Below, one piece after another: positions 12,989 to 18,920 of a stretch of DNA of 33,082 nucleotides. The stretch's first letter is position 1; every line of letters begins with the position of its first letter. The notes under the pieces were generated by a model. The model ran no database searches and was not told the DNA's origin. It saw nothing but the letters and a program-made list of their open reading frames with translations. The translations under genes were made by a program, and so were the position numbers. Source of the stretch: Prevotella sp. (lineage in GTDB: Bacteria; Bacteroidota; Bacteroidia; Bacteroidales; Bacteroidaceae); NCBI GenBank assembly GCA_017548275.1, contig JAFZAH010000056.1, forward strand, positions 1 through 33,082, written 5' to 3'.

Positions 12989-13420
12989 ATGACATTTCCA
13001 ATCACTGACGAGACAGTATCAATCATCCGCTCAAGCATTAAGGCATATCAAGAGCAGCCTGATTTTCCCAAGAAAGAAGAATATGGTATAGATGATGAGG
13101 AGTTGGACGATTTTCTTTTCGACAGCCGAGTCATCGAAGAGGTGACCATGGAGACGGAAAAGGCGCGTTTGACCCGCTTGGGCATCATTTTTGTGATACC
13201 CGTAGCCATCATGGCCATGTTCACGTTCGATACCAAATTGCGTCTTCTGATAGGCGTAGCGGGCGGTATTGTGGCGTGTTCAATCTATCTGCTGATAGAG
13301 AAAGCGATACAAATACATCATGACAAGAAACGCGCATCATCTGGTGCCGCACGTTATTGTGACGCCGTATTACAGTATTATGAGACGCATCCCATTGATG
13401 CCGAAACGGCCGCTGAATAA
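12989..13420 (+). CDS. Hypothetical protein with two membrane segments
   Basis: This is a 143-residue protein I do not recognise. The first 60 residues are soluble and acidic (EEYGIDDEELDDFLFDS). Two hydrophobic segments follow, about 65-80 (LGIIFVIPVAIMAMFTF) and 86-104 (RLLIGVAGGIVACSIYLLIEK), separated by a very short turn, then a His/Lys-rich cytoplasmic tail. The hairpin topology predicts both ends in the cytoplasm. Coding potential is supported by its own promoter-like -7 box, a start close to it and normal codon use. It lies between a divergent DUF1232 gene and the convergent RNase P RNA gene. Confidence 0.75.
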   Translation: MTFPITDETVSIIRSSIKAYQEQPDFPKKEEYGIDDEELDDFLFDSRVIEEVTMETEKARLTRLGIIFVIPVAIMAMFTFDTKLRLLIGVAGGIVACSIYLLIEKAIQIHHDKKRASSGAARYCDAVLQYYETHPIDAETAAE

Positions 13421-15745: not shown

Positions 15746-16606
15746 ATGAGACAACTAAAGATCACGAAATCCACCACCAATCGAGAGACCGCATCACTCG
15801 ATAAATATCTGCGCGAGATAGGTCATGAACCCTTGATCAGCATAGAGGAAGAAGTGGAGTTGGCTCAGCGCATTCATAAAGGTGACCGCGAGGCACTGGA
15901 GAAATTGACACGCGCTAATCTGCGATTTGTCGTTTCAGTGGCCAAACAATACCAAAATCAAGGTCTGAGTCTTCCCGACCTTATTAACGAGGGAAACTTA
16001 GGTTTAATCCGTGCGGCAGAGAAATTTGACGAGACCCGCGGTTTCAAATTCATCTCCTATGCGGTGTGGTGGATTCGGCAAAGCATCTTGCAAGCCATTG
16101 CGGAACAAAGCCGTCTGGTCCGTGTGCCGTTGAATCAAGTGGGGTTGCAGGGTATCATCAACCGTGAGTTGAACAAATTTGAGCAGTTGCATGAGCGCCG
16201 TCCGAGCATTGACGAGATAGCCGACCGTGTAGATGTGCCTCAAGAGAAGATAGAAGAAGCGATGAAAGGCTCTACACGCCATGTGTCAGTAGATGCCCCT
16301 TTCGCCGACGATGAGGAGAACAGCCTGCTGGATATACTGCCTGACACAGATGCTCCAAGCGCTGATAAAGGATTGGTTGACGAGTCTCTCCGCAAGGAGA
16401 TATCCCATGCGCTCCAGATGTTGAGTGAACGCGAGCGCCATGTCATTGAGGCGTTTTTCGGCATCAACCAACCCGAGATGACCTTGGAAGAGATTGGTGA
16501 GAAATATGACTTATCTCGCGAGCGTGTACGGCAAATCAAAGAGAAAGCCATCCGCCGTCTTCGCCATAACACAAAAAATAAGATGTTGAAGACCTATTTA
16601 GGTTGA
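15746..16606 (+). CDS. rpoD: Primary sigma factor RpoD/SigA (short Bacteroidetes form)
   Basis: This 286-residue housekeeping sigma-70 factor lacks the long region 1.1 and NCR of proteobacterial RpoD, as is usual in Bacteroidetes. Region 1.2 contains [27 protein letters not shown]. Region 2 contains [37 protein letters not shown] and the melting/-10 segment [15 protein letters not shown]. Region 3 follows (VRVPLNQVG onward), and region 4 ends with the helix-turn-helix [28 protein letters not shown]. It would direct polymerase to the TAnnTTTG promoters seen across this window. Only 13 bases without a hairpin separate it from the next gene, so read-through into the downstream cassette is expected. 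Confidence 0.96.
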
Positions 16607-16619
16607 TTTTTATTATTAT

Positions 16620-17213
16620 ATGAGATTAATACGAACGATTATCTGCGTTATCGCGCTTTTATTCCTTATTAACGGCCAGTCACAAGCCAAGAGCGTCTGT
16701 AAGCCCAAGGTTTACCTTTTTGGCGTATCCATATCTTTTAACGACTCGACCGTTTATTTTACAGACGTTCAACAATTAGAGAATGCGTGGGTCATCAATA
16801 AATCAAAAATGCTGGAAGGCCGCAACGTATATGCCAACCAATTGAAGTCCTACTTTTCTGATTTGGGCGAGAAAGACCGCACTTGCGTGGTTTACTACGC
16901 ATTCTCTGAAAAAGACATCCAGAAGAAATTGGCGAAAGTACGCAAGCGTTTCACCAATCCCAAGAAACGTAAGTACGAGCATTACGAAATAAAGACCGTT
17001 GCGAGAGACTTGTTTGTTTTTCAACAGGTAACCCATCAAGATGACGAGGATGAGCCTACATTGAGTAAGGAAGAGCGTAAAGCCGCTGAGAAAGCAGCCA
17101 AGCAAGCACTCAAAGACAAGCGTAAGGCCGAGGCACAAGCCGCACGAGACAAGCGTAAAGGTGCGATGCCTCCCCCGTCAAACGGACAGAGACCCCCAAG
17201 ACCCGAGAATTAA
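16620..17213 (+). CDS. Exported Lys-rich hypothetical protein
   Basis: This is a 197-residue protein I cannot assign to a named family. It has a clear signal peptide (MRLIRTIICVIALLFLINGQSQA, cleavage after QSQA near residue 23). A globular section (about 24-140) begins CKPKVYLFGVSISFNDSTVYFTDVQQL and includes two further Cys-containing or aromatic stretches. A charged tail rich in Lys, Ala and Glu (about 145-185) is probably a long helix, and the C terminus is Pro-rich (MPPPSNGQRPPRPEN). It begins 13 bases after rpoD and ends 5 bases before the HPr-kinase-like gene, so it belongs to one operon with them. Possible roles include a structural or periplasmic partner; no function is evident. Confidence 0.8.
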   Translation: MRLIRTIICVIALLFLINGQSQAKSVCKPKVYLFGVSISFNDSTVYFTDVQQLENAWVINKSKMLEGRNVYANQLKSYFSDLGEKDRTCVVYYAFSEKDIQKKLAKVRKRFTNPKKRKYEHYEIKTVARDLFVFQQVTHQDDEDEPTLSKEERKAAEKAAKQALKDKRKAEAQAARDKRKGAMPPPSNGQRPPRPEN

Positions 17214-17218
17214 GAAGG

Positions 17219-18112
17219 ATGAGCGAGATTAACCATTTTTCTATTGCTGACCTGGGGGTAGATATCATATTTCAAGATACCCGTATCAACCAGATGAGCC
17301 TGATTCCCTCGTATGAGCCATTCCGCATCAATGAAGTCAAGGAACCGGCTTTCATCCGGCTGACCGTCGATGACACGTTGAAACCTGTTAAGAAAGAGTT
17401 GCGCGAACGTATCCGCGACTTCGACACGGGTAACGGTATCACTGTTGTTGACGAAACCCCCGAAGGCTACCAGTTTATCATCCGCGACATCCGTGGTTAC
17501 GATTGCTGTATGTTGCAGTCGAATCATGATTTCACTGATTGTCATTGTGCCTTGAACGGCAATATGGACATGCGGCGTTTCGGTTTGAACAACGCCCTGA
17601 TGTTGGTTTATTCCTTTGCTTCATCACGTAAGGATACGCTTTTGGTGCATGCTTCATTGGTGAGGAAAGGCGATTACGGTTATGCTTTTATCGCCAAGAG
17701 CGGCACAGGCAAATCCACCCAGGTAAGCATGTGGCTCCGCTATATAGAAGGTTGTGACCTGATGAACGACGACAACCCCATCATCCGTATCATTGACGGC
17801 AAGCCGTATATCTATGGCAGTCCGTGGAGCGGCAAGACCCCTTGTTACCGCAAAGTGAAGGCAAAATTGGGTGCCGTGACACGCATTGACCGTGCGCCAA
17901 CCAACAGCATTGACAAGTTGCCGCCTATTGAAGCGTTCGCGTCATTTCTCCCAGCCTGTTCGTCGATGAAATGGGACAAGGAGATATTCGGTCATGTGTG
18001 CGACACGGTTACAAAAGTAGTCGAGACGACCGGCATCTATACCCTTCACTGCCTGCCCAACCGGGAAGCCGCCGAGGTATGCCATGCCGCCATCGCCATC
18101 AAGGACGAATAA
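17219..18112 (+). CDS. HPr-kinase-like P-loop protein of a RiPP-type cassette
   Basis: This 297-residue protein has no N-terminal HPr kinase domain. Its central part matches the HprK catalytic fold: LLVHASLVRKGDYGYAFIAK leads into a P-loop AKSGTGKST (159-167), followed by the acidic pair in LMNDDNPIIR (182-190) and the glycine/lysine loop YGSPWSGKTPC (199-209). Homologues of this architecture occur in lasso-peptide and other RiPP clusters, where some phosphorylate the precursor, and in orphan Bacteroidetes cassettes often labelled PEPCK-like or HPr kinase. It lies 5 bases after the exported protein, followed by an S26-type protein and a PqqD-like protein. No HPr (PtsH) is visible nearby, which argues against a classical role in carbon catabolite control. 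Substrate unknown. Confidence 0.8.
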   Translation: MSEINHFSIADLGVDIIFQDTRINQMSLIPSYEPFRINEVKEPAFIRLTVDDTLKPVKKELRERIRDFDTGNGITVVDETPEGYQFIIRDIRGYDCCMLQSNHDFTDCHCALNGNMDMRRFGLNNALMLVYSFASSRKDTLLVHASLVRKGDYGYAFIAKSGTGKSTQVSMWLRYIEGCDLMNDDNPIIRIIDGKPYIYGSPWSGKTPCYRKVKAKLGAVTRIDRAPTNSIDKLPPIEAFASFLPACSSMKWDKEIFGHVCDTVTKVVETTGIYTLHCLPNREAAEVCHAAIAIKDE

Positions 18113-18138
18113 GACCAATTCAAAAACAAATCAGGGTC

Positions 18139-18645
18139 ATGCACATCGGACGAAAGAGAAAGCAGCAACGACAGGAACCGGAGACGAAAAAACTGTTTCC
18201 GAATGCCGTATTATTGCCTCTCGTAGTAGAATTGTTGGAGAAAGGGAAGACTGTGACACTCAACCTGCGTGGATACAGTATGCGTCCTTTTCTGGAAAAT
18301 GACCGCGACAAAGCATTACTGAAGAAAGCAGAGAACCCGAAGGTGGGTGATCCCGTCTTGGCAGAAATCTCCCCTAAACATTTTGTTCTGCACCGCATCA
18401 TTGCTATTGACGGCGAGGCGGTGACACTTCGCGGTGACGGCAATCTTTGGGAAGAGCACTGTCAGTTGTCGGACGTGAAAGGAGCAGTCATCGGTTTTTA
18501 CCGAAAGGGACGCGACAAACTTGACCGTACAGACGGTAAGAAATGGAGGATTTACTCTTGGTTTTGGACCCGCCTCTACCCTATCCGCCGCTATCTGCTG
18601 GCGTTTTACCGTCGTATCTGGCTGAAATTATTTAAACCCATATAA
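18139..18645 (+). CDS. S24/S26-type peptidase-like protein with Ser/His pair
   Basis: This 168-residue protein has the LexA/signal-peptidase fold. Nucleophile Ser47 lies in LRGYSMRPFL and a pairing His85 in HFVLHRIIAIDG, so it resembles the Ser/His dyad of SipW/ER-type signal peptidases rather than the Ser/Lys dyad of bacterial type I enzymes. LRGDGN (about 97-102) is the third family box. There is no N-terminal membrane anchor. Instead the C terminus is aromatic and basic (WFWTRLYPIRRYLLAFYRRIWLKLF), suitable for membrane association. The frame is open far upstream within the kinase gene, but those residues are out-of-frame artefacts; ATG at 18139 starts 26 bases after the kinase stop. It ends 2 bases before the PqqD-like gene. 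It may cleave a leader peptide or another partner. Confidence 0.8.
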   Translation: MHIGRKRKQQRQEPETKKLFPNAVLLPLVVELLEKGKTVTLNLRGYSMRPFLENDRDKALLKKAENPKVGDPVLAEISPKHFVLHRIIAIDGEAVTLRGDGNLWEEHCQLSDVKGAVIGFYRKGRDKLDRTDGKKWRIYSWFWTRLYPIRRYLLAFYRRIWLKLFKPI

Positions 18646-18647
18646 AA

Positions 18648-18920
18648 ATGAGAGCAAAAAAAGGATTTACCCTGCGCACTGTTGTAGGAGAGAACATCAT
18701 CGTACCTGAAGGAAAAGAAAATATCGATGTGACCAACATCGTCAGCATGAACGAGAGTGCTGCCCTGCTGTGGCAGTCTATCGTTGACAAAGAGTCATTC
18801 ACGGCAGAGGATTTGGCTCAAATACTGACCGATAATTACGAAGTAGATGAGGACACCGCCCTCACTGACGCGACAGCCATCGCAGCAAAATGGATTGAGA
18901 CGGGTATTGCGGAAGAATAA
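18648..18920 (+). CDS. PqqD-like protein (RiPP recognition element fold)
   Basis: This is a 90-residue protein of PqqD size and pattern: N-terminal strands (GFTLRTVVGENIIVPEG), the characteristic VSMNESAALLWQSI helix start (about 36-49), then FTAEDLAQILTDNYEVDEDTALTDATAIAAKWIETGI, matching the winged-helix portion of PqqD proteins. In RiPP pathways this fold binds the precursor leader and presents it to the maturase. It is the last gene of the rpoD-exported protein-kinase-S26 series, 2 bases after the S26 gene, and is followed by a 19-bp hairpin. No radical SAM enzyme, cyclase or ABC exporter is nearby. PqqD family membership is likely; leader binding is inferred. Confidence 0.85.
   Translation: MRAKKGFTLRTVVGENIIVPEGKENIDVTNIVSMNESAALLWQSIVDKESFTAEDLAQILTDNYEVDEDTALTDATAIAAKWIETGIAEE

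Follow-up and report, generated by a model that had tools for sequence, protein, structure and literature searches.

Linear polyphosphorylated peptides (LPPs) arise from a pathway that unites an HprK-like kinase, a stand-alone RiPP recognition element (RRE) and a signal-peptidase-like peptidase (Popov et al. 2026, PMC13381572). In the account given in the main text of that paper, the kinase phosphorylates Ser3 of the core, the peptidase LppS (catalytic residues S29, H68 and D93) cuts only together with its RRE, and residues N33 and D70 of the RRE, LppB, bind the YxxP leader; by our count from the paper, the phosphorylated Ser of LppA lies 18 residues past the Tyr. The family, described in 2026 as one of unknown role, is according to its authors restricted to Bacillota, where its clusters are patchy, mobile and often found in capsule loci, and a term search of the main text returned no instance of 'Bacteroid'. 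Nor did we find a paper in the open-licence literature on the combination described here in Bacteroidales.

The window, by which we mean the whole 33,082-nucleotide stretch of DNA that was analysed, is the entire contig C56 of a Prevotella genome (3.2 Mb, 87% complete). It carries genes for an exported Lys-rich protein (Exp), an HprK-like kinase (K), a leader peptidase (S) and a PqqD/RRE protein (B), and our analysis confirmed all four where the original prediction had located them (Table 1). For a further protein of the window, 143 residues long and encoded at 12989–13420, Pfam gave no match at 0.001.

Table 1 Coordinates of the cassette, its neighbour and its conserved residues in the window. 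Residues of S are paired with LppS positions by motif, and those of B with LppB numbering through the TfuB1 alignment.
Feature	Position	Strand	Remarks
RpoD-like primary-type sigma factor	15746..16606	+	Pfam Sigma70 regions 1.2, 2, 3 and 4
Exp, exported Lys-rich protein	16620..17213	+	Trio partner (suggested); in 73/80 of best loci
K, HprK-like P-loop kinase (LppK counterpart)	17219..18112	+	P-loop, NDD and PWSGK(T) motifs kept; 1ko7 profile match
K, P-loop S161-T167 (SGTGKST)	17699..17719	+	S161, G162, G164, K165 and T167 each in 99% of 94 Prevotella-type kinases; 98% at most positions in 41 other copies
K, N183-D184-D185	17765..17773	+	99% of Prevotella-type copies, 93-98% of other copies
S, signal-peptidase/LexA-fold serine peptidase (LppS counterpart)	18142..18645	+	AlphaFold2 model and structure matches; start codon chosen at 18142
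S, Ser46, putative catalytic	18277..18279	+	LppS S29; 98% of 94 Prevotella-type, 100% of 38 other copies
S, His84, putative catalytic	18391..18393	+	LppS H68; 98% and 100% of the same sets
S, Asp99, putative catalytic	18436..18438	+	LppS D93; 99% and 100% of the same sets
B, stand-alone PqqD-fold RRE (LppB counterpart)	18648..18920	+	PF05402, 45.9 bits; TfuB1 (6jx3)
B, Asn35	18750..18752	+	LppB N33 (leader Pro); 100% of 90 Prevotella-type, 100% of 40 other copies
B, Asp74	18867..18869	+	LppB D70 (leader Tyr); 100% of 90 Prevotella-type, 88% of 40 other copies

Genes K, S and B form a conserved unit. All three are present in 36 of the 38 kinase-bearing loci from relatives, the exceptions being L043, which has neither peptidase nor PqqD, and L038, which has no peptidase match. 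They also occur together in 76 of the 80 loci L101-L180, in the order K-S-B on a single strand in 74; these loci are the best 80 of more than 586 matches and for that reason favour Prevotella-type copies, and they have some genomes in common with a second set, L011-L030. The remaining four loci of the 80 lack PqqD only, on contigs that stop 27 to 823 bases past the peptidase gene. The original prediction had staked its reading on the trio being conserved as a unit, and on this point it survives. For the trio, pN is far below pS. Across the order, 42 of 295 genomes match the kinase at E 2e-25 or better and 110 of 295 at 0.001, where the weak matches are perhaps P-loop noise.

Other arrangements were seen at individual loci. 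The PqqD gene lies on the strand opposite to kinase and peptidase in L011 (8392-8661) and L030 (9963-10238); an invertible switch around PqqD was considered here and rejected, no long flanking inverted repeats being present in the three stretches examined. In L118 (12189-13964), about 4 kb separates the kinase from PqqD and a peptidase match, both of which are on the opposite strand, and L040 and L042 each have an additional, divergent PqqD-like gene next to the kinase. A related K-S-B set in L046 (334-2206 onward) has as its neighbour a radical SAM protein that matches SPASM weakly, and is perhaps another RiPP type.

Conserved in the kinase, besides its P-loop, is N183-D184-D185, by analogy with HprK the probable catalytic/Mg site. 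As single sequences, kinase and peptidase score under the family cut-offs; the best NCBIfam matches of the kinase, reached via its P-loop half, are HPr-rel-A (TIGR04352; 22.4 bits, cut-off 200) and SynChlorMet ScmC (TIGR04249; 22.2 bits, cut-off 125). A kinase profile has HPr kinase 1ko7 as its top match (E 2.9e-5), with modest specificity, ABC transporters with a similar P-loop scoring nearly equally. The peptidase is modelled with a LexA/signal-peptidase fold, in agreement with its structure matches. The 90-residue PqqD protein, whose fold was the other point on which the original prediction was made to depend, clears the Pfam cut-off, and its closest solved relative is the lasso-peptide RRE TfuB1. 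In Prevotella-type copies the putative catalytic and YxxP-gripping residues are kept at 98-100%. The kinase/leader-binding/peptidase toolkit that was originally proposed, with a possible distant precursor, consists of the same three parts as the LPP pathway set out in the main text of PMC13381572.

Exp is found in 73 of the 80 loci L101-L180 and RpoD in 54, and in 19 of these loci Exp is present but RpoD is missing from the stretch (best 80 of more than 586 matches), which marks Exp as a member of the unit and RpoD mainly as a neighbour. All 20 loci of the set L011-L030 do have the sigma factor upstream of the cassette; it is probably context only. The AlphaFold2 model of Exp has a pLDDT of 89.3, and structure searches with it gave no confident fold match. 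The earlier suggestion that the exported protein might be the substrate is not supported, the window's copy having no YxxP leader or motif; its tight linkage (73/80 of these top-ranking loci) suggests instead that Exp is a partner of the trio.

Two architectures can be distinguished: the Prevotella type, Exp-K-S-B, and that of other Bacteroidales, in which the trio is joined by an ABC exporter and an NTP transferase (PF14907). Among 19 extended loci fetched with their flanks, eight have K, S, B, the NTP transferase and the ABC exporter, which is the LPP core set. Exp is absent from these fuller clusters; only one of the 19, the Prevotella-type L275, has it. The description of the cassette as an orphan therefore holds for the window, where neither an NTP transferase nor an MsbA-like exporter is found in the neighbourhood, and fails elsewhere in Bacteroidales, where fuller clusters exist. 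In L032, for example, a 501-residue protein bearing the C-terminal tail described below is followed 12 bases on by a peptide, and then by the NTP transferase, K, S, B and the exporter. L256 (5764-17652) holds PqqD, NTP transferase, kinase, Wza/Wzc-like genes (by eye), a precursor-like peptide, peptidase and exporter. Peptidase and ABC exporter are fused in one ORF in L048 (1716-3956, by Pfam), and in two of the 19 extended loci, L271 (8907-11168) and L273 (6095-8377), a single ORF matches both by HMM and BLAST.

Matches to a leader profile number 11, spread over nine loci, near the 38 non-Prevotella-type trio loci (566 kb) and three near 98 Prevotella-type loci (1527 kb), a control set that includes repeats because L011-L030 and L101-L180 overlap in genomes. 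The corresponding densities, 19.4 and 2.0 per Mb, differ about tenfold (P 9e-5, or 3e-4 minus the one training sequence), and the reversed DNA of both locus sets gave no leader-profile match at 10 bits or more. That 29 of the 38 non-Prevotella-type loci have no such match nearby counts against the explanation that we prefer below.

On contig C56 itself, neither the DNA leader pattern nor a peptide-profile search revealed a precursor. In the source genome, the DNA pattern ATG-K-K-x-Y-x-x-P has six matches, all of which open into peptides of 53-71 residues, against none for the reversed pattern. A profile built from 34 peptides, to which this genome contributed three, finds 18 places (E 3e-13 to 0.035); two of these, at two contig ends, are identical in sequence, leaving 17 distinct candidates. 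These have the form MKKxYxxP...[LM]xxS, and all are away from the trio contig. The idea of a distant precursor is borne out to the extent that the genome has faraway peptides with the expected leader, which may be the ones modified. Also unlinked to the trio are an MsbA-like ABC exporter, 45% identical to that of the L256 cluster, and three NTP transferases, of which one is only 86 bases away from a candidate peptide.

Across the genus and one relative, we collected 65 distinct peptides, retained from 83 distinct translations once artefacts and those below 38 or above 90 residues had been dropped. They have MKKxYxxP and a hydrophobic pair in common, together with a tail rich in acidic residues (Asp+Glu 27%, Lys+Arg 7% over the 65). 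A Ser lies 19-20 residues past the leader Tyr in 36 of 65, and 44 of 65 have a Trp within the last 15 residues. We rejected the DNA pattern as proof by itself, since it picks up many artefacts (MKKRYLAPS antisense, MKKVYADP, MKKIYRVP/SVP, AYAFPPTAF); alone it is weak, with matches in 177 of the order's 295 genomes, some of them antisense or with in-frame stops. In the 247 genomes of the genus, the leader pattern has 1043 matches against 69 for a control. Kinase-positive genomes (n=219) average 4.5 matches and kinase-negative ones (n=28) 1.9 (Mann-Whitney P 8e-6), a comparison of raw pattern matches in which related genomes are not independent, only part of the candidates are scored per genome, kinase matches include other classes such as the EPS-type L043 of G004, and the 28 negatives comprise 20 listed and eight inferred from absence in the positive list. 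No pattern match occurs in 26 of the 219 kinase-positive genomes. Four genomes (G376, G425, G455 and G494) have 7-14 pattern matches yet no kinase match at 1e-10, and count against the reading of the trio as a hub acting in trans.

For 52 of the 65 peptides, a same-strand ORF of at least 130 codons ends no more than 260 bases upstream, and 41 of these 52 ORFs end in a common tail, for example YDLQGRRVxxPxKGLYIVNGKKVVVK; the median gap between a tail-bearing ORF and its peptide is 18 bases. The tail occurs in seven of 840 control ORFs, which are class-1 neighbours unmatched to secreted proteins. Its pattern is partly fitted, having been written after 27 upstream ends had been read, and it fits 21 of those 27 and 20 of the 38 ends unread beforehand. 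The form G[LVI]YIxNGKKxxxK was seen on large secreted-looking proteins preceding peptides in L276-L295 and others. Five of nine upstream proteins have Pfam domains above the cut-off (Big_2, dockerin, Ig-like and, twice, BspA-type LRR). The TIGR04183 C-terminal sorting domain was found at 0.01 in none of nine, a set in which one protein is minus its N-terminal part and another is a C-terminal part alone, and the 24 TIGR04183 places of the source genome do not include these upstream genes. The idea that the upstream proteins are standard T9SS cargo was rejected on these grounds and because known TIGR04183 ends in the same genome look different. In view of this negative result, we claim a shared tail only.

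Taken together, these observations make it probable that the trio is the K, S, B core of an LPP-like maturation pathway that has become fixed in Prevotella and acts in trans. In the scheme that we infer for its chemistry, substrates and product, a short precursor would be expressed from a distant gene, often one immediately after that of a secreted surface protein, and its MKKxYxxP leader would dock on the PqqD protein via Asn35 and Asp74. The HprK-like kinase would then phosphorylate the Ser about 19-20 residues past the leader Tyr, and the LexA/signal-peptidase-fold enzyme, with the peptide presented by PqqD, would cleave it a few residues upstream of that Ser. The acidic core could be carried over the inner membrane by the unlinked MsbA-like ABC exporter, an NTP transferase perhaps adding a further group beforehand, and Exp may act as a periplasmic partner.

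The linkage of Exp to the trio (73/80 of the top-ranking loci, above the 54/80 of RpoD) and its absence from the fuller clusters would also fit a trio recruited to Exp or to another conserved envelope protein, the dispersed peptides being handled elsewhere or left unmodified. No precursor lies near the Prevotella-type trio beyond background, and the four genomes with many peptides and no kinase match point the same way. The YxxP-binding residues of the RRE nevertheless stay fixed even though the window's Exp has no YxxP, kinase-bearing genomes have more peptides, and the same leader recurs inside the fuller clusters, so that we regard recruitment as unlikely.

We give still less credence to a role of the trio in envelope polysaccharide assembly, in which the kinase would have a sugar or lipid carrier as its substrate, with the peptides as bystanders. 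This would accommodate the L043 kinase, which adjoins Poly_export in the absence of peptidase and PqqD, the Wza/Wzc-like genes of L256 and the two source-genome NTP transferases that lie among sugar genes (both by eye), and LPP clusters are likewise often in capsule loci (PMC13381572, main text). At the window locus, however, no sugar genes adjoin the trio. Furthermore, we know of no job on sugar for an RRE with a leader-peptidase-like enzyme. Local precursor, exporter and NTP transferase are all missing at the window, as they would be if the trio were a decaying remnant of a RiPP cluster since lost, but putative catalytic and binding residues at 98-100%, pN far below pS and the retention of the trio over many species make decay the disfavoured and by far the least probable reading.

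If the trio is an LPP-like core acting in trans, the LPP family would extend from Bacillota to another phylum, a proposed enzyme could be assigned to short gut and rumen proteins whose family has no name, and the trio would be a RiPP-like system with genome-scattered substrates, of a kind that cluster-based mining would miss. The tie between candidate substrates and surface proteins would also give the family a testable role. More tentatively, and with less than even confidence, we suggest that a RiPP pathway has turned housekeeping in Prevotella, with one fixed hub serving dozens of dispersed, unrelated cores, each operon-paired with a large secreted protein, so that the surface would be decorated or assembled with phosphopeptides and the output would not be one natural product.

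Among known systems, the Bacteroidales GG-leader/C39 RiPP clusters (PMC10352776) share with the trio the order and a leader-peptidase and exporter logic, but rely on C39 peptidases and on radical SAM/YcaO enzymes; the main text, searched by term, names no HprK-like kinase, S24 or nucleotidyltransferase. Phosphorylated lasso peptides of the paeninodin and Bsf types, as presented in PMC10368454 and PMC5067487, share the kinase, the B1 RRE, the NTP transferase, the ABC exporter and a YxxPxL leader; the leader peptidase here is instead a serine enzyme of another fold, and neither a lasso cyclase C (Asn-synthetase-like) nor a B2 cysteine peptidase was found among the Pfam-scanned window genes and the scanned part of the related loci. 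Compared with LPPs as described in the main text of PMC13381572, the host is Bacteroidales, and the Prevotella locus has K, S and B without A, N and D, beside Exp and often rpoD; it is widely fixed, whereas the Bacillota clusters are patchy and mobile. Candidate precursors are many and dispersed in each genome, often behind a tail-bearing protein, and mostly acidic; they have no HQxIxFET, and their Tyr-Ser spacing is 19-20 (36/65) rather than 18. Because contig C56 has no in-cluster precursor with YxxPxVLxHQxIxFETxxS and the window neither an NTP transferase nor an MsbA-like exporter clustered with the trio, we do not file the trio as an LPP member. Like the LPP pathway, however, the window trio comprises an HprK-like kinase, a stand-alone RRE that keeps the predicted Asn and Asp for YxxP, and a signal-peptidase-like leader peptidase with a putative Ser/His/Asp triad, and other Bacteroidales add to it an NTP transferase, an ABC exporter and YxxP-leader precursors with a later Ser, sometimes with polysaccharide genes nearby.
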